Assembly (NCBI GenBank): GCA_001304875.1 | Contig: BBZO01000006.1 | Span: forward strand, 62,001 to 126,000 | Direction of reading: 5' to 3' | DNA length: 64,000 bases | Source of the DNA: Clostridia bacterium UC5.1-2E3 | GTDB taxonomy: Bacteria > Bacillota > Clostridia > Lachnospirales > Lachnospiraceae | Shown here: positions 8,273 through 22,983 of the stretch, piece by piece | Layout: each line of letters begins with the position of its first letter | Position numbering within the stretch: position 1 is the first letter of the stretch | Program-made: the position numbers and the translations under genes | The notes under the pieces: model-generated | Told to the model about the DNA's origin: nothing | Seen by the model: the letters and a program-made list of their open reading frames with translations, nothing else | Databases searched by the model: none

Positions 8273-9362
8273 ACAAATGTTAGAAGAATCATTAAAAACA
8301 ATACGTACAGGAGAGGTTGTCACTGGAAAGGTCATCGACGTGAAAGAAGACGAGATCGTTTTGAATATAGGCTACAAGTCTGATGGTATCATTCCGAAAA
8401 ACGAGTACACCAACGAGCCCGGTGTTGACCTCCGCGACGTGGTAGCCGTGGGCAGCGAGATGGAGGCCAAGGTGGTCAAGGTCAACGACGGCGAGGGCCA
8501 GGTGGCTCTCTCCTACAAGAGACTGGCTGCCGACAGAGGCAACAAGAGACTGGAGGAGGCCTTCAACAACCAGGAGGTTCTCACCGCAAAGGTTACCCAG
8601 GTACTGGACGGCGGACTCAGCGTGAACGTTGAGGAGACCAGAGTGTTCATTCCGGCCAGCCTTGTGTCCGACACCTATGAGAGAGATTTAAGCAAGTACG
8701 CCGGACAGGAGATCGAGTTCGTGATCACCGAGTTCAATCCGAGAAGAAGACGCATCATCGGCGACCGCAAGCAGCTTCTCGTAGCGAAGAAGGCAGCGAT
8801 GCAGAAGGAGCTCTTCGAGCGCATCGAGGTAGGCCAGACCGTTGAGGGCGTGATCAAGAATGTCACCGATTTCGGCGCATTCATCGACCTGGGCGGCGCA
8901 GACGGACTGCTTCACATCTCCGAGATGTCCTGGGGCAGAGTGGAGAACCCGAAGAAGGTATTCAAGGTCGGCGAGACCATCAAGACCTTTATCAAAGATA
9001 TTAACGGCGAGAAGATCGCCTTAAGCCTTAAGTTCCCGGAGGCAAATCCGTGGATGAACGCCGCTTCCAAGTACGCGGCAGGCAATGTTGTGACCGGTAA
9101 GGTTGCGCGCATGACGGACTTCGGCGCATTCGTTGAGCTGGAGCCGGGCGTGGACGCTCTGCTTCACGTGTCCCAGATTTCCAGAGAGCACGTGGATAAG
9201 CCCGCTGACGTTCTGAAGATCGGCCAGGTGATCGAGGCGAAGATCGTTGATTTCAACGAGGCAGACAAGAAGATCAGCCTGAGCATGAAAGCTCTGGAGA
9301 GCGCGAAAGAGGAGCCGGATGTGGCTGACGTTGACGTGGAGGCCGTTTCCGCAGAGCAGTAA
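8253..9362 (+). CDS. rpsA: S1 RNA-binding domain protein (ribosomal protein S1-like)
   Basis: Intact 369-residue protein with four S1 domains, roughly residues 15-85, 100-165, 185-255 and 272-342. The third and fourth have the clearest S1 signatures (TDFGAFIDLGGADGLLHISE and TDFGAFVELEPGVDALLHVS). The start at 8253 lies inside the 3' end of ispH, so translation is probably coupled. S1-like proteins help mRNA binding on the ribosome or RNA turnover. The four-domain form is usual in Firmicutes. A rho-independent terminator follows. Confidence 0.93.
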   Translation: MSELSFEQMLEESLKTIRTGEVVTGKVIDVKEDEIVLNIGYKSDGIIPKNEYTNEPGVDLRDVVAVGSEMEAKVVKVNDGEGQVALSYKRLAADRGNKRLEEAFNNQEVLTAKVTQVLDGGLSVNVEETRVFIPASLVSDTYERDLSKYAGQEIEFVITEFNPRRRRIIGDRKQLLVAKKAAMQKELFERIEVGQTVEGVIKNVTDFGAFIDLGGADGLLHISEMSWGRVENPKKVFKVGETIKTFIKDINGEKIALSLKFPEANPWMNAASKYAAGNVVTGKVARMTDFGAFVELEPGVDALLHVSQISREHVDKPADVLKIGQVIEAKIVDFNEADKKISLSMKALESAKEEPDVADVDVEAVSAEQ

Positions 9363-9383
9363 GAGTCAGACAAGAACAGGAGA

Positions 9384-9415
9384 GCCTCCGCACAGACTGT
9401 GCGGGGGGCTTTTTG
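9384..9415 (+). terminator. Terminator after rpsA
   Basis: AGCCTCCGCACA (9384-9395) pairs with TGTGCGGGGGGCT across the three-base loop GAC, followed by five T. Confidence 0.88.
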
Positions 9416-9471
9416 CGGCAGTAAATACTGTGCAGACACGATACTGCGCAGATATACAAAGGAAGAGACAT

Positions 9472-10751
9472 ATGTATACCATCGTAGTTGCAGACGACGA
9501 AGAAGATCTGAGAAGAACCATCATACGAAAAATTGACTGGGAGTCCATCGGCTTTCAGGTGGTCGGCGAGGCCGAGAACGGCGTGGAGGCCCTGGAGCTG
9601 GTGACGAAGAACGAGCCGGACCTGCTGCTGACGGATATCCGCATGCCGTTCATATCGGGGCTGGAGCTGGCGAGGCAGGTGCGGGAGGTGCGTCCGTCCA
9701 CGCAGATCGCATTTTTAAGCGGATATGACGATTTCTCCTACGCCCAGGAGGCCATACGCTACAACATCATAAGCTATCTCTTAAAGCCCATCTCCCTGGA
9801 AGAACTGAGTGAAAATTTAAGACAGATAAAGGAGAAGCTGGACCGTATTTTCTCCGAATTTTCCGAGCGCAGGAGGACCGGCCCGGATGTGGCGGAGTTT
9901 CTGCTGCCGCTGCTGCTGGACGGCAGCCAGGCGGAGGCGTCCGGGGACCGGGAGAAGAGGGAGGCGCGGCTCATGGAGCAGGCGGTGGCCTGCCGTTTCC
10001 TGGAGCCGGTTCATTCCAACATCCATTATGTGGTGATTTCCGTCTCTCTCTGGGACGGGGAGGAGCAAAACTGCACCAGCTACGGGGATGTTCACGCCAT
10101 CAACGGCATTCTGCAGAAATATATCAAGGGCGAGGCGTTCTTCCTGGAGGACAAGATCACCGCAGTGCTGGCGGCGACGCCCGCCGCCCTGGACAAATAC
10201 CTGCACATTATTATCGACGAGATCGTGCAGAGCATCGAGCGTATTCTGGGACTTCACTGCTACATCGGGGCGGGCCGTGTGACCGGTCGCCTGTCGGGGC
10301 TTGCGGAAGGATACCGGGCCTCGGTGAGCGCATGAACAGTGCCGGCCAGAGCGGCGGCAGCAGCGTGCTCTACATCGCCGATCTGGAGGCGCAGAAGAAT
10401 AAGGGCAGCATGGACATCTGTGAGCGGGCGCTCCGCTATATTGAGGAGACCTACGCGGACGCCGGTCTCTCTCTGATGACCACCAGCCAGGAGGTGGGAG
10501 TGAGCCCCAACTATTTAAGCGCGCTGATCAAGAAAAAGACGGGCAAAAGCTTCGTGGACTATCTGACGGCGAAGCGCATGGAGACCGCCAGGCGGCTGCT
10601 CCTGGACACGGGCATGAAGGTGCGGGAGATTGCCCAGGCCTGCGGCTACAGCGATCAGCATTATTTCAGCTACTGCTTCAAAAAATACGCCGGCCTGTCG
10701 CCCAATATGCTGCGCCAGCAGGCCGGGGAAAGAGAAAAACATGAACAGTAA
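9472..10751 (+). CDS. YesN-type response regulator (receiver + AraC HTH), frameshifted
   Basis: Receiver domain (1-125) with D8/D9 and phospho-acceptor D55 in LLTDIRMP, lysine in YLLKPIS, a central linker, and a C-terminal AraC-type double HTH (VGVSPNYLSALIKKKTGKSF and ACGYSDQHYFSYCFKKY). The start is ATG 9472 after GGAAGAGA. The frame breaks at 10331, where GCGCCATG reads as GCGCATG, the same local change as in cmk. The stop overlaps the histidine kinase start by 11 bases. It probably controls the sugar transporter downstream, since the kinase and a sugar-binding sensor are encoded in the same operon. Confidence 0.9.
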
Positions 10752-12469
10752 GAGAACCCTGCGCCGCATCTGGTCCAGCTCCGCCGTCATGACGGCGATG
10801 GTGGTCGGCATGGTGACGGCGGCGCTCCTTGCCGGAATGATCGTGTTTGTGGCGATCTACCGGCACTCGATGATACAGAATGTGAAGACGTCCAGCGAGC
10901 AGATCACGGGCCAGGTGTCCAACATTGTGGAGGATTATATGAACGACATCAGCAGCTCCATGCGCCTGATCCGGGAAAGCTGCGCACTCCCGGACCGGAT
11001 GCGGGATGAGAAGCTGAATGCCCTGGCGGAGTACCGCCCGGAAGTCATCGCGATCACCGCCTACGACAGTGAAACCGGAAAGATGCTGAACGCCTGGACG
11101 GGAAAGCGGCGTCTGAAGGACAATATTTCCACAAACCTTTCCCTTCCCAGTAAGACGCCTCAGGAGGTCACCGAGTTCTTGATCTCGGCGCCCCACGTCT
11201 CCAGCATCCTGGCCAACGAGTATCCCTGGGTGGTCTCGGTGTCCGGCGTGGTGCAGGAGCCGGACGGCACGGAGCGCATTCTGGTGCTGGACACCAATTT
11301 CTCCCAGATCGCCTTCTACGTGGACAACGTGGGGATCGGAAAGCACGGCTACTGCTACATCATGGACGCAGACGGAACCATCATCTACCATCCCCAGCAG
11401 CAGCTGATTTTCGCCGGGCTCAAGGAGGAGAAAACCGGGCTTCTGCGGGATATTTCCGACGGGAGCGTGGAGGAGGACGGCGTCATCTACACCGTGCACC
11501 GGGAGGCGGAGAACGGCTGGCGCATCGTGGCTGTGAGCTACGTGGACGAGGTGATTTCCGTGGGACTTATGAACTGCCTGTACCTGCTGCTGGCGCTGCT
11601 GCTGTGCGTGCTGCTGGCGACGCTCATCTCCAGCCTGGTTCTCTCGAGGCTCATCTCCGGCCCATCAGCCAGCTGATGTTTGCCATGCGCGATTTTGAGA
11701 AAAATGCGGAAGGCTTTGCCTTCACGCCCATCGGCGGGACCAGCGAGATGATGGCCCTGTCCGACTCCTTCGGCGACATGGTGGTGCGCATCCAGGAGCT
11801 GATGACCCGTGTGAGGAGCGAGGAGGTGGCCTTAAGAAAGACGGAGCTTCGCGCGCTGCAGGCCCAGATCAATCCCCATTTCCTCTACAACACGCTGGAT
11901 TCCATCGCCCTCATGTGCGAGGACGGGAGAAATAAGGACGCCGTGGACATGGTGAATGCGCTGGCGAGGCTGTTCCGCATCAGCATCAGCAAAGGCCACG
12001 AGCTCATCCCGATCCAGAAGGAAGTGGAGCATGCGCAGAGCTATCTGAAGATCCAGAAATTCCGCTACAAGAACCAGTTTGAGTACGGGTTCGAGGTGGA
12101 GGAGCAGTGCCTTAAATATTACTGCAACAAGATCACCCTGCAGCCCATCATCGAGAACGCCATCTACCACGGCTTAAACCGCATGATCGACGAGGGTACA
12201 TAAAAATACGCATTTACGAGGAAGGCGGGGACGTGGTGTTTGCCGTGTCCGACAACGGCGTGGGGATGACGAAGGAACAGTGCGAGAGCATTTTAAAGAA
12301 GGAAAACAATCCCAACGCAGGTATCGGAATAAAGAATGTCAACGACCGGGTGAAAATCTATTTCGGTGAGCGCTACGGCATGAAGATCGTGAGCGAGCTG
12401 GACGAGGGAACCACCGTGTATATCCGGATGCCGAAGGTGGAGGAGGGCAGCTATGAGAGCAGATTATGA
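10741..12469 (+). CDS. YesM-type sensor histidine kinase (dCache-HAMP-HisKA_7TM type), frameshifted
   Basis: Two membrane segments (about residues 15-40 and 280-305) enclose an extracellular Cache-like sensor with GYCYIMDADGTIIYHP. After a HAMP-like region comes the YesM phospho-acceptor QINPHFLYNTLDSIA and an ATPase domain with IIENAIYHGL and DNGVGM. Two frame breaks are seen: near 11663 (CCCC to CCC) and near 12196 (GGGG to GGG). The reconstructed length is about 576 residues. It overlaps the regulator upstream and the sugar-binding protein downstream, forming a three-gene signalling unit. Confidence 0.9.
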
Positions 12470-13492
12470 GAAAATGGCCAGACAGGCGGGAAGGAAGCCG
12501 GGGAGAATGCTCGCCGCCCTGATCGCGTTTCTGCTGATTCTCCTGATTGTGGCCGTGATGATTCTCCGCGCTGCTTTCTCCGGCAGCATGGGATTTTCGG
12601 GCGGCGAGCCGGAGGAGAAATATAAGGTGGCCATGATCGTCAAGTCCACCAAGTCCGCATTCTTCCAGTCGGTGTTTGCCGGCGCGGGCGTGGCGGCCAC
12701 CGAGTATAACATCGAGCTGACGACGGAGGGGCCGGAGACCGAGGAAGACTACGAGATGCAGAATGCCCTCATCGACCAGGCGGTGAAAAACGGCGCCGAC
12801 GCCATCGTGATCTCCGCCGTGGATTTCGAGGAAAACAAGGCGGCCGTGGACCGTGCGGCGGGCAAAGGGCTTCCCGTGGTGGTCATCGACAGCGACGTGA
12901 ACAGCAGCCTGGTGAGCTGCCGCATCGGCACCGACAATCTGGAAGCAGGACGCATGGCCGCGGAGGCGGTTCTGGCGCAGACGGAGGGGGAGCTCATTGT
13001 GGGCATCGTCAACTTCGATGAGAACACGGCCAACGGGCAGGAGCGTGAGGCAGGCTTCCGCCAGGCCATGGAGGAGAGCGGCCGCGTGGAGGATATGACA
13101 ACCATAAACGTCCTCTCCACGACGGAGGACGCCAGAGAGGGGACCAGAGAGCTGATCGGCGCGACCCCCGGTCTGGATGTCATCGTGACCTTCAACGAGT
13201 GGACCAGCCTGGGCGTGGGCTGGGCCATCCGGGACGAGGGAAAGAAGGACGACATCATGGTAACCGCGTTTGACAGCAATGTGATCTCAGTGGGAATGCT
13301 GGAGACCGGGGAGGTGGACGCCTCATCGTGCAGAACCCCTATGCCATGGGCTATCTGGGAGTGGAGAGCGCCTACCGCCTTCTGACGGGGAAGGAACCGG
13401 CCGCGAAGCGGGTGGACACCGCCACCACGCTGGTCACACGGGAGAACATGTACCGCCCGGAATATCAGAAGATTCTCTTCCGCTATGAATAA
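12453..13492 (+). CDS. Membrane-anchored periplasmic-binding-protein sensor, frameshifted
   Basis: RbsB/MglB-fold sugar-binding domain tethered by one N-terminal membrane helix (about residues 18-40: MLAALIAFLLILLIVAVMIL) rather than a cleaved lipoprotein signal. The ligand domain opens with YKVAMIVKSTKSAFFQSVFA and has DAIVISAVD and VVVIDSDVN. The frame breaks at about 13322 (GCCC to GCC); the tail continues IVQNPYAMGYLGVE to the TAA at 13492. It overlaps the kinase gene by 17 bases. In similar clostridial loci such proteins pass the ligand state to a YesM-type kinase; here that role is inferred from operon position and the membrane anchor. Confidence 0.82.
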
Positions 13493-13534
13493 TGGTTTCT
13501 GTTGGATTTTGAACAAAAACAGTGGAAAATTGTA

Positions 13535-13563
13535 TGGACTTTTGTGCAATTAGGATATATAAT
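13535..13563 (+). promoter_or_regulatory. Predicted promoter of the sugar transporter operon
   Basis: TGGACT (13535-13540), a 17-base spacer and TATAAT (13558-13563) precede the binding-protein gene. The weak -35 box would suit activation by the upstream AraC-type regulator. Confidence 0.5.
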
Positions 13564-13626
13564 GGATACAGACAGTGTGGGACATGCCCAAACTGATCTT
13601 GTAAACATTTTTAGGAGGAATGTCTT

Positions 13627-14951
13627 ATGAAAAAAAGAACATTAGCACTCGCTATGGCTTCCGTGATGGCCTTAAGCTTGCCGGATGCGGAGGCGGCGAT
13701 ACCGCTAGCACAACAGCAGCTGCAACTGAGGCAGCAGCAGAGGGCGCAGAGACCACAGCACAGGCAGAGGCGCCCGCTGAGAACGCAGAGGTTGCAAACA
13801 AGGATAAACCTCTCGTATGGTTCAACCGCCAGCCGTCCAACAGCTCCACCGGTGAGCTCGACATGGCTGCGCTGAGCTTCAACGAGGACACTTACTATGT
13901 AGGATTCGATGCAAACCAGGGTGCTGAGCTTCAGGGCCAGATGGTTTTAGACTACATCGAGGCAAACATCGACACCATCGACCGCAACGGTGACGGCATC
14001 ATCGGTTACGTATTAGCAATCGGCGATATCGGACACAACGACTCCATCGCACGTACCAGAGGCGTTCGTAAGGCTCTCGGCACCGGCGTTGACAAAGACG
14101 GCAACATCAACAGCGATCCGGTTGGTATGAACGCAGACGGCTCCGCAACAGTTGTCCAGGATGGTACTCTTGAGATCAACGGAACCACCTACACCGTTCG
14201 TGAGCTTGCTTCCCAGGAGATGAAGAACTCCGCAGGCGCCACATGGGATGCCGCTACCGCAGGTAACGCAGTAGGCACATGGGCTTCCTCCTTCGGCGAG
14301 TCCATCGATATCGTTGTTTCCAACAACGACGGTATGGGAATGTCCATGTTCAACGCATGGTCCAAGGACAACCAGGTTCCGACCTTCGGTTATGACGCGA
14401 ACGCAGACGCAGTGGCAGCCATCGGCGAGGGCTACGGCGGAACCATCAGCCAGCACGCTGACGTACAGGCTTACTTAACCCTTCGTGTTCTCCGCAACGC
14501 TCTTGACGGCGTAGACGTTGACACAGGTATCGGCACCGCTGACGACGCAGGCAACGTTCTTTCCGACGATGTATACGTATACAACGCAGACGAGCGTTCC
14601 TACTACGCATTAAACGTAGCGGTTACCGCTGAGAACTACCAGGATTTCATGGATTCCACCAAGACCTACGAGCCGGTTTCCAACCAGCTTGACGCAAGTG
14701 CACATCCGGAGAAGAGCGTATGGCTGAACATCTACAACGCAGCAGATAACTTCTTAAGCGCTACATATCAGCCGCTCCTTCAGAACTATGACGATCTGCT
14801 CAACCTCAAGGTAGAGTACATCGGCGGCGACGGCCAGACCGAGTCCAACATCACCAACCGTCTGGGCAACCCGAGCCAGTACGATGCATTCGCCATCAAC
14901 ATGGTTAAGACAGACAACGCAGCTTCTTATACAGCTTTACTTAGTCAGTAA
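13627..14951 (+). CDS. Circularly permuted galactose/glucose-binding lipoprotein, frameshifted
   Basis: Substrate receptor of an Mgl-type ABC importer. The signal peptide MKKRTLALAMASVMALSL continues after a one-base loss (TTGGCCGG to TTGCCGG, near 13681) into the lipobox LAGCGGG. The order of the fold is permuted relative to E. coli MglB. The protein begins with the strand KPLVWFNRQPS (MglB VPVVFFNKEPS), then YYVGFDANQGAELQGQ and the calcium loop DRNGDGIIG, then NNDGMGMSMFNA. It ends with VWLNIYNAADNFLSATYQPL and DAFAINMVKTDNAA, which match the N-terminal lobe of MglB. GGAGG precedes ATG 13627. It is followed by a stable hairpin, then the ATPase and permease genes. Confidence 0.88.
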
Positions 14952-15051: not shown

Positions 15052-16560
15052 ATGGCAGATAAGAAAGATGATATCGTCTTATCAATACGCGGTATGAGCA
15101 AATCCTTCGGCCGCAACCGGGTTCTGGATCACATCAATCTGGATGTGAAGCGCGGAACCGTCATGGGGCTGATGGGGGAGAACGGAGCCGGTAAATCCAC
15201 GATGATGAAGTGCCTGTTCGGTACATATCAGAAGGACGAGGGCACGATTTACCTGGACGGAAAAGAGATCAGCTTCTCCGGCCCGAAGGATGCTCTGGAG
15301 AATGGTATCGCCATGGTTCACCAGGAGCTTAACCAGTGCCTGGAGCGGAACGTGGTGGACAACCTGTTCCTTGGCCGGTATCCGGTCAACTCCATGGGCG
15401 TCGTTGATGAAGGACGAATGAAAAAGAAAGCCACAGAGCTTTTCAGAAGACTCGGAATGACCGTAAACCTTTCCCAGCCCATGCGGAATATGTCCGTATC
15501 CCAGAGGCAGATGTGTGAGATTGCCAAGGCCATCTCCTACAACGCCAAGGTGATCGTGCTGGATGAGCCGACATCCTCCTTAATGGTTCAAGAGGTAGAA
15601 AAACTGTTTGAGATGATGCGGATGCTGAAAGAACAGGGCATCGCGCTCATTTACATTTCCCACAAGATGGACGAGATCTTTGAGATCTGCGACGAGATTT
15701 CCGTGCTGCGGGACGGCAACCTTGTCATGACAAAGAGCAGCAAGGAAACCAACATGAACGAGCTGATCGCAGCCATGGTTGGACGTTCCCTGGAGAACCG
15801 GTTCCCGCCGGTGGACAACGTTCCGGGAGACGTGACGCTCTCCGTGCAGCATCTGTCCACGAAATTTGAGCCGCACCTGCAGGACATCACCTTCGACGTG
15901 AGAGAGGGCGAGATCTTCGGCCTCTACGGCCTGGTGGGAGCGGGAAGAACGGAGCTTTTAGAGACCATCTTCGGCGTGCGGACGAGAGCCGCCGGGCGCG
16001 TCTATTTCAAAGGCCGTCTGATGAACTTTGAGAACGCCAAGGAGGCCATCGAGCACGGCTTCGCCATGATCACCGAGGAGCGAAAAGCCAACGGTCTGTT
16101 CCTGAAAGCAGACCTCACCTTCAACACGACCATCGCCAACTTAGAGCAGTACAAGTCGGGAGCGGCGCTCTCCGATACCAAGATGGTGAAGGCGACGGCG
16201 AAGGAGATCAAGATCATGCACACCAAGTGTATGGGCCCGGAGGATATGATTACCAGCCTGTCGGGCGGAAACCAGCAGAAGGTCATTTTCGGAAAATGGC
16301 TGGAGCGCAGTCCGCAGGTGTTCATGATGGACGAGCCCACGCGAGGCATCGACGTCGGCGCGAAATATGAGATATACGAGCTGATCATCAACATGGCAAA
16401 GCAGGGAAAGACGATCATAGTTGTCTCCTCCGAGATGCCTGAGATCCTTGGTATCACCAACCGAATCGGCGTTATGTCCAACGGCCGCCTCTCCGGTATC
16501 GTCAACACGAAGGAGACGAACCAGGAAGAGCTGCTGCGGCTTAGCGCAAAATATCTGTAA
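15052..16560 (+). CDS. mglA: Sugar ABC transporter ATP-binding protein (MglA-type, two ABC domains)
   Basis: Intact 502-residue tandem ATPase. The N-terminal domain has Walker A GENGAGKST (42-50), Walker B VIVLDEPTSS and a Q-loop. The C-terminal domain has the degenerate Walker A GLVGAGRTEL, signature LSGGNQQK and MMDEPTRGIDVGAKYEIY, the pattern of the MglA/RbsA/AraG family. It powers import with the permease encoded 18 bases downstream. The ribosome site is AGGAG. Galactose or glucose as the substrate is inferred from the binding protein. Confidence 0.92.
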   Translation: MADKKDDIVLSIRGMSKSFGRNRVLDHINLDVKRGTVMGLMGENGAGKSTMMKCLFGTYQKDEGTIYLDGKEISFSGPKDALENGIAMVHQELNQCLERNVVDNLFLGRYPVNSMGVVDEGRMKKKATELFRRLGMTVNLSQPMRNMSVSQRQMCEIAKAISYNAKVIVLDEPTSSLMVQEVEKLFEMMRMLKEQGIALIYISHKMDEIFEICDEISVLRDGNLVMTKSSKETNMNELIAAMVGRSLENRFPPVDNVPGDVTLSVQHLSTKFEPHLQDITFDVREGEIFGLYGLVGAGRTELLETIFGVRTRAAGRVYFKGRLMNFENAKEAIEHGFAMITEERKANGLFLKADLTFNTTIANLEQYKSGAALSDTKMVKATAKEIKIMHTKCMGPEDMITSLSGGNQQKVIFGKWLERSPQVFMMDEPTRGIDVGAKYEIYELIINMAKQGKTIIVVSSEMPEILGITNRIGVMSNGRLSGIVNTKETNQEELLRLSAKYL

Positions 16561-16578: not shown

Positions 16579-18231
16579 ATGGCGAACGAGAATAAAATAC
16601 TGACAGCCGAGCAGGAAAAAAAGCTGCTCCAGCCGATTGACGACTATGTCGGCAAGATACAGAGTAAGATCGACGCGCTCCGGGCGGACGGCACCGAGAA
16701 GGTCATTTCTCTGCAGGACGAAATCGATTCTTTAAAGAAAGACAAGATCTACACGAAAGAGGAAAAGGACGCGCGGCTTGCTGCAGCCCAGAGCGCTCTG
16801 GACAAGGCGAAAGCGGTGGAGGCCCAGAACAAGGACGAGATCGCAAAGCTGATCGCCGACGCGGAGAACTATCTGAAAGCGCATTACGATGCGGAGTACT
16901 ATCAGCCGGTCTGTGAGAGCTGCAAGGAAGAGAAGGTTCTGGCGCAGGAGAAGTACAGCGCGAGGAAGGCAGAGCTTGAGAAAGCTCACCAGGAGAACCT
17001 GTCGAAGCTCTCCGACAGCCAGGAGATCAAGGACGAGAAGTACGTTCACAAGAACCGCCTTTTCGACGCCAAGATGGAGTATGAGAAAAATCTCCAACAG
17101 GTGAAGGACAGAAGGCATGCCGCCTACGCCCACAGACATCACCTGCTCGATATGCTCCGGCTTTCCAAATTCTCCTTCATGGAGACGAGAGCGGAGAGAT
17201 GGGAGAATTACAAATATAAATTCAATGCCAGACAGTTCTTCCTCAACAACGGACTGTATATTGCCATTATTATTATATTTATTATCCTGTGCGCGATCAC
17301 GCCGATCATCAAGAATGTGCCGCTGCTGACCTACAACAACGTGCTCAACATTCTTCAGCAGGCGTCCCCGAGAATGTTCCTGGCGCTGGGCGTTGCCGGC
17401 CTCATCATGCTGGCTGGTACCGACCTGTCCGTAGGACGTATGGTTGGTATGGGTATGACCACCGCGACCATCGTCATGCACCAGGGCATCAACACCGGCG
17501 GAGTGTTCGGTCATATCTTTGACTTTACCTCCCTGCCGGTTCCCGCTAGAGTCGTGCTGGCACTGGTTATGTGCATCCTTCTGTGCACCGTGTTTACGAC
17601 GATTGCCGGTTTCTTTACCGCGAAGTTTAAGATGCATCCGTTTATCTCCACCATGGCGAACATGCTGGTTATCTTCGGACTTGTTACATATTCCACCAAG
17701 GGCGTGTCCTTCGGTGCCATCGAGTCCTCCATTCCCGGCATGATCATCCCGAAGATCAACGGGTTCCCGACCATTATCCTCTGGGCAGTGGCGGCGATCA
17801 TCGTGGTATGGTTTATCTGGAACAAAACGACGTTTGGTAAGAACCTGTACGCAGTCGGCGGCAACCCCGAGGCGGCGTCAGTTTCCGGTATTTCCGTGTT
17901 CCGCGTGACGGTAGGCGCATTCGCCATGGCCGGTATCCTCTACGGATTCGGTTCCTGGCTTGAGTGTATCCGTATGGTGGGTTCCGGTTCCGCAGCCTAT
18001 GGACAGGGCTGGGAGATGGATGCCATCGCAGCCTGCGTAGTGGGCGGCGTATCCTTCACCGGCGGTATCGGTAAGATCTCCGGCGTGGTAGTCGGTGTGT
18101 TCATCTTCACCGCGCTGACCTACTCCCTGACGATCCTGGGTATCGATACGAACCTGCAGTTCGTATTCTCCGGAATCATCATTCTGGTGGCGGTTATGCT
18201 GGACTGCTTAAAGTACATTCAGAAGAAATAA
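16579..18231 (+). CDS. mglC: MglC-type sugar ABC permease with long N-terminal helical extension
   Basis: Intact 550-residue protein. Residues about 230-550 are a normal MglC/RbsC-type permease with many membrane helices and motifs LIMLAGTDLSVGRMVGM and GGVSFTGGIGKISG. Residues about 1-220 are soluble, highly charged and heptad-like (EKKLLQPIDDYVGKIQSKID, LQDEIDSLKKDK, ARKAELEKAHQENLSKLSD), with one CESCKEEK segment; family members are usually about 330-350 residues without this part. It may be a cytoplasmic coiled coil. ATG 16579 follows GAGGGGG. A terminator follows. Confidence 0.9.
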   Translation: MANENKILTAEQEKKLLQPIDDYVGKIQSKIDALRADGTEKVISLQDEIDSLKKDKIYTKEEKDARLAAAQSALDKAKAVEAQNKDEIAKLIADAENYLKAHYDAEYYQPVCESCKEEKVLAQEKYSARKAELEKAHQENLSKLSDSQEIKDEKYVHKNRLFDAKMEYEKNLQQVKDRRHAAYAHRHHLLDMLRLSKFSFMETRAERWENYKYKFNARQFFLNNGLYIAIIIIFIILCAITPIIKNVPLLTYNNVLNILQQASPRMFLALGVAGLIMLAGTDLSVGRMVGMGMTTATIVMHQGINTGGVFGHIFDFTSLPVPARVVLALVMCILLCTVFTTIAGFFTAKFKMHPFISTMANMLVIFGLVTYSTKGVSFGAIESSIPGMIIPKINGFPTIILWAVAAIIVVWFIWNKTTFGKNLYAVGGNPEAASVSGISVFRVTVGAFAMAGILYGFGSWLECIRMVGSGSAAYGQGWEMDAIAACVVGGVSFTGGIGKISGVVVGVFIFTALTYSLTILGIDTNLQFVFSGIIILVAVMLDCLKYIQKK

Positions 18232-19187: not shown

Positions 19188-19310
19188 ACAAAAATTTAAC
19201 GCATTTTGCCCGGCCTTTTGGGTTATGTGCTGTTGTATTTCTCTGTCATCCTTGCTATAATGTATGGCTGGAATAGAAATATTAAAATATGTCATTGGAG
19301 GTTGTTGGAA

Positions 19311-20752
19311 GTGAAAAAACTAGTTGCGATCTGCATGAGCCTGGGAGCCTTGCTCGGCTGCAGCCCTATGACTGTTCTGGCCGCGGAGACGGCGGCTGAG
19401 GGGAGTGCGGCGGTTCCGTTCTGGCTCTGTGTTCCGTTTGCGGGGCTTCTTCTGTGTATTGCCCTGTTCCCGCTCCTCAAGCCGGTCTGGTGGGAGAATC
19501 ATCAGCCCTATGCGGTGATTTTCTGGTCTCTTTTGTTTATCATACCGTATGCACTGAGCTTCAGCGCAGGGACGGCGCTGGAGACGGTTCTGGAGTGCAT
19601 GATTAACGATTATCTTACATTTATCATTCTGCTGTTCGGCCTGTTCTGCGTGTCGGGCAACATTACCATGACCGGGGACCTGGCCGGTTCGCCCAGGATC
19701 AATGTGGGACTTCTGGTGCTGGGAACACTGCTTTCCAGCTGGATCGGCACCACGGGAGCCAGTATGCTGATGGTCCGTCCGGTGATCAAGATGAACTCCT
19801 GGAGAAGAAGAAAGCGCCATATTATCGTGTTCTTCATTTTCCTGGTGTCCAATATCGGAGGCGTGCTGACGCCCATCGGCGATCCGCCCCTTCTGATGGG
19901 ATTCATGCGGGGCGTTCCTTTCTTCTGGAGCCTTAGGATGCTCCCGGTGCTTCTGTTTAACATGGTCCTGCTCCTGTTTGTCTTTTACTGGATTGACAGA
20001 CGGGCGTATCACCTGGACATCGCGGCGGGCCTTAAGCCGGATATCAGCAAGCCCGGTACGGAGGTGAAGATCAAAGGACTTCACAACCTTATTTTCCTGG
20101 CGATGATCGTGGCTGCGGTGATCTTAAGCGGTACTCTTCCGGGACTGCCGGCCTTTCAGGATGCGGCGGGAAATGTGAAGGGACTTCACATTTTCGGCGA
20201 GGTGACGCTGGGGTATCCGTCCATCATCGAGATCGTGATTATCCTGCTGGCAGCGTTTCTGTCCTTTAAGACCACGGGCGCGAGATCCGCAGGGAGAACC
20301 ACTTTACCTGGGGTGCCATCAAGGAGGTTGCGGTCCTGTTCGTGGGTATCTTTATCACGATGCAGCCGGCGCTGATGATCTTAAAGGCCAACGGCGCGAA
20401 CCTGGGGATCACGGAGCCGTTCCAGATGTTCTGGAGCACGGGATTTCTGTCCAGCTTCCTGGATAATACGCCCACCTATCTGGTATTCCTGACCACCGCC
20501 GGTTCCCTGGGCTTTACCGAGGGAATGGTGACGACGTTAGGCACCGTGCCGGTGAAGATGCTGATGGCGATCTCCGCCGGGGCCGTGTTCATGGGAGCCA
20601 ACACGTACATCGGAAACGCGCCCAACTTCATGGTTAAATCCATCGCCGACGAGAACGGTATCCATATGCCGTCCTTCTTCGGATATCTGAAGTGGTCCCT
20701 GGGGATTCTGATTCCGGTGTTTATCCTGGATATGTTCATATTCTTTATGTAG
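19311..20752 (+). CDS. Sodium:proton antiporter-like carrier (ion transporter superfamily), frameshifted
   Basis: Polytopic membrane protein of the ArsB/NhaD/CitMHS superfamily. GTG 19311 follows GGAGG by nine bases and gives a signal-like first helix (MKKLVAICMSLGALL). Hallmarks are SNIGGVLTPIGDPPLLMGF in the first half and FLDNTPTYLVFL plus MGANTYIGNAPNFMVKSIAD in the second, the pseudo-repeat motifs of this superfamily. The frame breaks near 20282 (GGGCCGCG to GGGCGCG). The substrate is uncertain; Na+/H+ exchange is the usual annotation for this subgroup. Confidence 0.85.
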
Positions 20753-20767
20753 GGAGGAGGACGTAAG

Positions 20768-21816
20768 ATGCAGGAGACGATAATGAATAAGGAAAAGATC
20801 AATGAGGAGACTCTGCGGAATCTGGCGGAGCGCATTTACGACCTGGACGCCGAGGTTTACGTGCAGCTGGGGTCCTCCCTGGGCCGCGTGTTCAACAACG
20901 ACCGGAAGCGCTGCGTGGACGATATGGTGAGCCTGATGTTAAACCGGCCGGAGGCCACCGGATACGGAGCGAGCTGGCGCTGATCGCCAACATGGCCCGC
21001 ACCATCAAGGACAAGGAAGAGCGCGCGCTGGTCATGCGCGAGTATAATATCATTTTAAAGGAGCTCATGAGCCTGCCCACCAGCTTTGCCGGGTGCGATA
21101 TCATCGATCCCAACATGGCGCGGCTTAACACCTTCAATCTGAACGACCGTTTCAGCAAGGACGACCATCTGATCATCTGCATGAGCTGGACCTACGGAAG
21201 CGGCGGCAGCACGGTGGGATTCAAGCTCTCCGACAAGCTGAAGATCAATTACTACGATGAGGAAATTTTCGACGCCGTGCTGAAGCGGCTGGAGGTGGAG
21301 CAGGATTCCGTGCAGGACGTCAGCGGCTACAACACCGATCTGCCGGACTGGAACGGATTTGTGAACACGCTGCTCCCGGACAATCATATAAGCATCCGTG
21401 AACGGCTCAGAGAGTTCAGCCGCTACCACGGGCTTTCCAAGCGGGACGCGGTATTTTTCAACCAGAGCGATCTGATCTGCGACATGGCGAAGAAAGAGGA
21501 TTTTATTCTGATGGGCCGGTGCGGGGACGTGATTCTGACCAACAACAACATTCCCCACATCAGCATCTATGTTACGGCTCCCTTTGAGCAGCGCATACAC
21601 CGCGTGATGGAGATCAACAAGGGCATGGATGAGAAGAAGGTGCGTCATCTGCTTCACCATCTGGACAGACAGCACTCCCATTACTACCGGTTCTACACCG
21701 GACGCAAGTGGGGACACGCAAACAACTACGATCTCTGTGTCAACAGCGCCAGCTACGGCATCGACGGCACGGTGGACTTTATCATGAAGATGCTGGGAAA
21801 TAAGGCGGTGCGGTAA
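20768..21816 (+). CDS. Cytidylate kinase-like protein with N-terminal extension, frameshifted
   Basis: The C-terminal part (from about residue 130) matches the cytidylate-kinase-like family: WTYGSGGSTVGFKLSDKL in the P-loop position, YYDEEIFDAVLKR, FILMGRCGDVILTN and YVTAPFEQRIHRVMEI. The P-loop lacks a GKS/GKT lysine, as in this family, so catalysis on CMP is uncertain. The first 130 residues are helical and unlike Cmk. The frame breaks near 20970 (GGAAGC to GGAGC). ATG 20768 follows GGGAGGAGG right after the antiporter gene, suggesting cotranscription. Confidence 0.78.
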
Positions 21817-21824
21817 AAAACAAG

Positions 21825-21853
21825 TTGAAAGACTTGTCAGAATGTTCTAGAAT
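21825..21853 (+). promoter_or_regulatory. Predicted promoter of the PfkB kinase gene
   Basis: TTGAAA (21825-21830), a 17-base spacer and TAGAAT (21848-21853), 44 bases before the start codon. Confidence 0.55.
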
Positions 21854-21896
21854 ATTACCAGAAGGTTTATACAAACCGATTGAAGGAGGGTATTCA

Positions 21897-22983
21897 ATGG
21901 AACACTACAATCCGCTTTTAAACATAACCAGCGATCAGAAGTTTATCACCATCGGGGAGATCATGCTCCGTCTGACGCCGCCCAACTATGAAAAGATCCG
22001 TCTGGCCACCAACTTCGAGGCCAGCTACGGCGGCAGCGAGGCTAATATCGCGCTGGCGCTGGCGAACCTGGGCGTGGACAGCACATTTTTCACGGTGGTG
22101 CCCAACAACAGTCTGGGAAAGAGCGCCATCCGCATGCTGCGCAGCAACGACGTGCACTGTACGCCGGTGATTCTCACCACGCCGGAGCAGACGCCGACCC
22201 ACCGGCTGGGCACCTACTACCTGGAGACCGGCTACGGAATCCGCGCCAGCAAGGTGACCTACGACCGGAAGCACAGTGCCATCACGGAGTTTGATTTTGA
22301 CACCGTGGATATCGAGAAGCTTCTGGAGGGCTTTACCTGGCTGCACTTAAGCGGCATCACGCCGGCGCTGGGGGACAACTGCCGCAAGTTTACCATGGAC
22401 TGCATCCGCAAGGCGGAAGGAGATGGGGCTGACCGTCAGCTTCGACGGAAACTTCCGCAGCAAGCTCTGGAGCTGGGAGGACGCCAGGGATTTCTGCACG
22501 GAATGTCTGCCGTACATCGACGTGCTCCTGGGCATCGAGCCCTACCACCTGTGGAAGGACGAGAACGACCACAGCAAAGGGGACTGGAAGGACGGCGTGC
22601 CGCTGCAGCCCAGCTACGAGCAGCAGGACGAGATTTTCCAGGCGTTCGTGGAGCGCTACCCCAACCTCAAATGCATCGCCAGGCATGTGCGCTACGCCCA
22701 CAGCGGAAGCGAAAACAGCCTGAAGGCGTTTATGTGGTACGAGAACCACACGTTTGAGAGCAAGCTTTTCACCTTCAATATCCTGGACCGCGTGGGCGGC
22801 GGTGACGCCTTCGCCAGCGGACTGATCTACGCGATGATCCACGAGTACCGGCCCATGGACATGATCAATTTCGCGGTGGCCAGCAGCGTGATCAAGCACA
22901 CGATCCGCGGCGACGGAAACATTACCGACGATGTGTCCACGATCCGGAATCTGATGAATATGAATTACGATATTAAGAGATAG
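21897..22983 (+). CDS. PfkB-family sugar kinase (2-keto-3-deoxygluconate kinase-like), frameshifted
   Basis: Ribokinase-fold carbohydrate kinase. ATG 21897 follows GGAGGG. Motifs: ITIGEIMLRLTPP at the start, YGGSEANIALALANLG, LTVSFDGNFRSKLW and the C-terminal PfkB signature DRVGGGDAFASGLIY with the catalytic Asp. The FRSKLW region and overall pattern are closest to KDG kinases. The frame breaks near 22419, where an extra G (or two missing bases) separates MDCIRKA from KEMGLTV. It has its own promoter and terminator. KDG as the substrate is an inference. Confidence 0.85.

Follow-up and report, generated by a model that had tools for sequence, protein, structure and literature searches.

A circularly permuted MglB-like receptor and an extended MglC-like permease in a Clostridia genome

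The closest described relative of the receptor reported here is TP0684/MglB-2 of Treponema pallidum (TpMglB-2), the structure of which was described in 2016 as that of a naturally permuted protein (PMC4990184). That paper proposes the name "Type Ic / Cluster Bc" for such ligand-binding proteins, reports that homologues occur in spirochaetes as well as in Gram-positive bacteria, often those of the gut, and describes a distribution of homologues of the TP0686 permease that is similar to that of the receptor homologues. According to the same source, TpMglB-2 binds D-glucose with conformational change/closure, and a role in chemotaxis is discussed. The PDB entries 6bgc and 6bgd were released in 2018. 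A follow-up paper on TpMglB-2 from 2018 reportedly exists. Because the permutation, the class name, and the Gram-positive homologues are already given in PMC4990184, the permutation analyzed below is not new and the receptor is an added member of the described Type Ic (TpMglB-2) class; the view of an earlier, sequence-only reading that permuted receptors are known mainly from engineering fails for this protein.

The gene lies in a 64,000-nucleotide stretch of DNA from Clostridia bacterium UC5.1-2E3, a bacterium that probably lives in an animal gut; we refer to this stretch in its full length as the window. It contains the following features.

13627..13680, + strand: start of the lipoprotein signal peptide (MKKRTLALAMASVMALSL), from translation and sequence, with an AGGAGGA ribosome-binding motif upstream
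13672..13688, + strand: frame change from signal peptide to body, with the lipobox LAGC and its Cys codon at 13686-13688, from frame translations
13689..13799, + strand: low-complexity Ala/Glu/Thr-rich linker of 37 residues, from the putative lipid-bearing Cys to the folded domain
13800..14948, + strand: mature permuted body of 383 residues, predicted to bind glucose/galactose, with the stop at 14949-14951 (phmmer, rotation scan, fold search)
13980..14006, + strand: calcium-binding-type loop DRNGDGIIG, aligned to MglB D134, N136, and D138
14625..14711, + strand: probable crossover (connecting) segment from C lobe to N lobe, with approximate limits set by alignment to 5jx2; a fourth hinge is described in PMC4990184
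14709..14921, + strand: Pfam Peripla_BP_7 (PF18610), which covers the N-terminal strands of MglB type in their relocated position (141.4 bits, E 9.7e-42)
15052..16560, + strand: MglA-type double ATPase (NCBIfam MglA 662.7 bits, the best of the rows shown, under the cut-off of 828)
16579..17223, + strand: 215-residue extension at the N-terminus of the permease, with long helices predicted and no Pfam match above cut-off
17224..18231, + strand: MglC-type permease core (NCBIfam MglC 270.7 bits, residues 215-550; Pfam BPD_transp_2)

We conclude that the gene almost certainly encodes a putatively lipid-anchored glucose/galactose receptor of the TpMglB-2 class that would serve the neighboring MglA/MglC-like importer, a reading built on the chain order, homology, binding-site residues, and gene neighborhood established here. 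The chain of the mature receptor opens at a point that lies about 90 residues into MglB, and the strands that form the N-terminus of MglB come last. This rotated order, already proposed in the sequence-only reading, is confirmed by a rotation scan, a collinear match to 5jx2, and an end-to-end alignment of a structure model. In a phmmer search of the PDB, 5jx2 and 6bgc are matched over residues 54-441 and 6bgd over 61-441, each in one stretch, with E-values from 1.9e-91 (5jx2) to 1.1e-88, whereas MglB chains in the same search match in two stretches. The native order also matches the MglB equivalog NCBIfam NF011924 in two pieces, at 89.8 bits versus a cut-off of 420. Pfam places Peripla_BP_4 at residues 89-297 of the open reading frame (62.3 bits) and PF18610 at 364-434, both over cut-off; PF18610 at the C-terminus with Peripla_BP_4 in the body is the class marker that we chose for this analysis. 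The genome contains one match to the receptor protein and one to PF18610.

For the rotation scan, we took all rotated forms of the mature protein (383 residues) and scored each against two MglB proteins, one from a record with the label Pseudomonas sp. A2, where it is annotated as mglB (L120), and one from Cetobacterium (L119). The score rises from 238 in native order to a maximum of 264 against L120, and from 228 to 269 against L119, the maximum being a plateau that spans the sampled rotations from 260 (L120) or 240 (L119) to 300, plus 301-306. Shuffling the moved segment (from 306) gave a mean of 240.9 (sd 4.4) against L120 and of 232.0 (sd 4.9) against L119, and the observed maxima lie about 5 and about 8 sd above these respective means. 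The sequence similarity of the moved segment to MglB is weak, with at least one of 200 shuffles tying the score of 264 for L120, while the best of 200 reaches 249 for L119. The profile-profile score increases from 206.8 in native order to 238.6 when rotated at 300 (ten rotations tried), and the DNF sugar motif of MglB (D14, F16) aligns with identical letters in the C-terminal segment.

An AlphaFold2 model of the receptor, made from 34 sequences (33 of 80 fetched relatives and the window protein), is of moderate quality, with a pTM of 0.64 and a mean pLDDT of 61. Its alignments with 5jx2, 6bgc, and 6bgd start at model residue 1-3 and run to 383, with Z of 20.4-23.6 and rmsd of 4.7-4.8, whereas the MglB-type chains at ranks 4-15 of the fold search align model residues 1-275 at most with chain residues from 82 or later. 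The segment corresponding to the fourth hinge is present in the 5jx2 alignment, and model confidence close to it is low (residues 257-276 below 50).

Homologues with the same domain order, for which the sequence-only reading had proposed a search, were found among genome relatives, on a Treponema plasmid, and in the solved structures. All 80 of the relatives compared, which are the best 80 of 421 from a search that favors the permuted order by having the permuted protein as its query, keep this order in separate assemblies, with 85.6-92.7% identity across 382 or more aligned columns. The named nearest relatives are mostly from Lachnospiraceae and similar genera. A 252 kb plasmid of Agathobacter rectalis carries one such operon, in which the permease has 549 residues and which has integrase and transposase genes within about 6 kb, a setting consistent with horizontal spread.

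The binding sites agree with this assignment to the TpMglB-2 class. At ten MglB sugar-contact positions taken from PMC4990184, nine residues are those of MglB and the tenth, N256, is replaced by Q, which is the TpMglB-2 residue; none of the ten positions varies among the 34 aligned rows, which comprise the window and 33 of the 80 relatives. In the calcium site, D134, N136, and D138 of MglB are kept, with Q140 changed to I, Q142 to G, and E205 to D, and the calcium site of TpMglB-2 as published also has G and D at the latter two positions (PMC4990184). The most likely role of the receptor is to bind glucose/galactose and supply it to the MglA/MglC-like transporter encoded next to it.

The listed open reading frame, 13620-14951 (+), comprises 443 residues, the first of which are read in the wrong frame because the signal peptide from ATG 13627 changes frame near 13672-13683, where a frame shift joins the signal-peptide frame to that of LAGC and the body. 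ATG 13627, which the coordinates of the sequence-only reading implied, is the better start, opening the signal peptide behind AGGAGGA, and very likely the true one. The frame break is likely a sequencing or assembly error, since several neighboring genes also look split between frames and the assembly (GCA_001304875.1) is a draft of 80 contigs with 86.7% completeness and 5.83% contamination. It leaves the permuted body untouched; as the signal peptide is frame-broken in the assembly, this copy of the receptor could nevertheless be inactive. The genes that seem split lie at 9319-13385 and 19206-22757 and include a response regulator, a histidine kinase, and an upstream sugar-binding protein, as well as a transporter and a sugar kinase-like gene that we named by the look of their sequence, a pattern that suggests indel errors in the assembly.

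Three further explanations were weighed against a natural permutation that serves uptake. The draft state of the assembly and the seemingly broken frames of the neighbors would suit a rotated order that arose by misassembly or by local loss of a normal N-terminal lobe. However, the best 80 of 421 relatives, query-biased as this sample is, have the same order in other assemblies, as do the Treponema plasmid and the solved structures, and translation of 13382-13833 in all three forward frames showed no MglB-type N-terminal lobe. We therefore reject the artefact, to which we assign practically no weight. The C-terminal segment might instead have been acquired from another gene and have converged on the same role, rather than being the relocated MglB N-terminus, an option that the 2016 authors considered (PMC4990184). 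Low identity fits such an origin, with 13% in the published comparison of the C-terminal segment with the MglB N-terminus (PMC4990184), as do the separate Pfam family PF18610 and the one of two shuffle controls that reached the observed score. The pairwise and profile scores, however, rise on rotation, and the DNF motif falls on the same letters, such that we regard acquisition as improbable and relocation as the better account.

The third explanation, that the receptor is mainly a sensor or chemoreceptor and not for uptake, draws on the genes directly upstream (9319-13385), which encode the response regulator, the histidine kinase, and the sugar-binding protein, the last with an N-terminal hydrophobic stretch, and on the chemotaxis role discussed for TpMglB-2. 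It is possible that these two-component genes and the sugar-binding protein form a sugar-sensing system for the operon. As neighbors they are inconstant, however: in 87 loci, two of which are the window's own, two-component genes were not found as constant neighbors, with the kinase piece HK_b matched within 6 kb upstream in 19 and the sugar-binding protein in nine (68 of the 87 loci have more than 4 kb of upstream sequence), while regulator matches lie downstream of the receptor in 36. The permease core, in contrast, was found in 74 of 80 loci, and the remaining six sequences end before or within the permease. A role mainly in sensing is thus very improbable, and we retain uptake as the function of the putative receptor.

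Lipid anchoring is predicted from the signal peptide and lipobox. A lipobox-like Cys is present in 16 of 17 relatives inspected, the exception (L047) having a receptor frame that starts with a signal peptide without a lipobox Cys, so a lipid anchor need not be common to every member. The tether from Cys to fold ranges from 23 to 90 residues in 84 of 87 loci (three are without Cys), a crude range, as the count began at whichever Cys came first in each open frame and the frame starts were uncorrected. The suggestion of the sequence-only reading that a shifted lipid anchor could alter docking seems weak here, as the 37-residue low-complexity linker that separates the Cys from the fold would argue against a strict geometric effect; in the homologue from Treponema saccharophilum, only about a dozen residues lie between the lipid Cys and the fold.

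The ATPase and permease genes directly follow the receptor gene. The permease comprises 550 residues, and its core matches positions 7-336 of the 336 in the MglC profile, with a score that stays below the cut-off of the MglC equivalog NCBIfam NF007014 (270.7 versus 386 bits). The first 215 residues, the extension, are 39% charged and were modelled as helices at 10-37, 39-54, 60-143, and 147-194, with a ten-residue mean pLDDT of 75-94 over residues 11-190; outside the extension, the permease model is poor (pTM 0.36). The helices may pack as a hairpin, and the extension is probably cytoplasmic, although the side of the membrane is one that we infer.

The permuted receptor and the extended permease occur together. 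Within the 74 loci that have a core (among the best 80 of 421 relatives), the extension match shares the open frame of the core in 73 and falls in the adjoining frame in one (L064); one of the 73 (L072) has a 385-residue frame with 50 residues before the core, and its extension is thus partial as listed. In another locus (L096, 7282-10551), the ATPase and extended permease share one 1090-residue open frame, which appears to be a fusion or a sequence error. Across 200 genomes of the family, PF18610 was found in 21 and the extension in the same 21, which bears out the co-occurrence that the sequence-only reading proposed to check; in one of them (G001), receptor and extension are on separate contigs, and the match to the extension is split in two. 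Across 398 genomes of the phylum, PF18610 was found in two (G000 and G292) and the extension in the same two. A weak extension match in a further genome, G268 (E 2.8e-4, positions 13-92), was not counted, the protein being apparently unrelated and looking chemoreceptor-like with coiled coils. Receptor, ATPase, and extended permease (550-568 residues) stand side by side in the operons of G292, G093, G142, and G215. The same order is seen on the T. saccharophilum plasmid, the one Treponema record that makes up the spirochaete evidence for the pair. Its permease of 562 residues is 42% identical to that of the window over 571 columns with the extension included, and the extension alone is 23% identical over 218 columns (E 5e-10, a single comparison).

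Of five regions with an ordinary MglB-like gene only (L107-L111), four contain a permease, always of normal length (335, 347, 352, and 340 residues), and L107 shows none. A search of 60 family genomes with the permease core does not support the extension as a general feature of the permease superfamily: among the matches listed, eight frames exceed 500 residues, all in the eight permuted-receptor genomes, and the remaining matches listed have open frames of 278-466 residues, an open frame not being equal to gene length. The terms "coiled" and "N-terminal extension" are absent from the main text of PMC4990184, and no description of the permease extension was found in the literature searched, which mostly excluded subscription papers. 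Since receptor and extended permease belong to a single operon and may share a single origin, their co-occurrence by itself is no proof that either needs the other. Tentatively, they could be one co-evolved transporter type in Lachnospiraceae-type bacteria and Treponema, in which the extension, unlike anything in ordinary MglBAC, gates or positions the ATPase or links an intracellular partner, an idea that we hold with more doubt than belief.

In the proposed mechanism, the chain would open with strand four of the MglB N lobe, build the C lobe, and recross by an extra hinge, with the first three N-lobe strands coming last. With N-lobe strands at start and finish, both chain ends would lie in the same lobe, a placement made by analogy with TpMglB-2. 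The sugar cleft and calcium site would be rebuilt from the rearranged segments, and the receptor would close on its sugar and hand it to the MglA/MglC-like importer, the permease of which bears the conserved, probably cytoplasmic, helical extension. Binding of glucose/galactose in this species, lipidation, docking, and transport are each predicted.

A transporter receptor that is circularly permuted by nature allows the importance of chain order to a Venus-flytrap protein to be tested cleanly, and gut commensals supply harmless relatives of the Treponema protein for such work. Its pairing with an extended permease offers a specific explanation, open to testing, for a possible difference between this type of transporter and MglBAC, and the long helical tail of the permease is a less explored part of the system.

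When compared to TpMglB-2 (5jx2, 6bgc, 6bgd), the window receptor has the same rotated order and is collinear over its mature length. Its sugar site likewise follows the published pattern, with Q in place of N256, and its calcium site carries the same two changes, to G and to D. It differs in sequence (about 40% identity), in a longer insert around residues 157-190 of the window protein (P0001), and in having D where TpMglB-2 has N311. With MglB of ordinary order, it shares the sugar-contact residues, the calcium loop, and the gene set of receptor, ATPase, and permease, whereas its chain order is different, it has a probable extra crossover segment, and its score is 89.8 bits versus 420. Finally, the permease resembles MglC over profile positions 7-336 of its core and differs from it by about 215 added N-terminal residues, the annotated Cetobacterium MglC having 336 residues in all.
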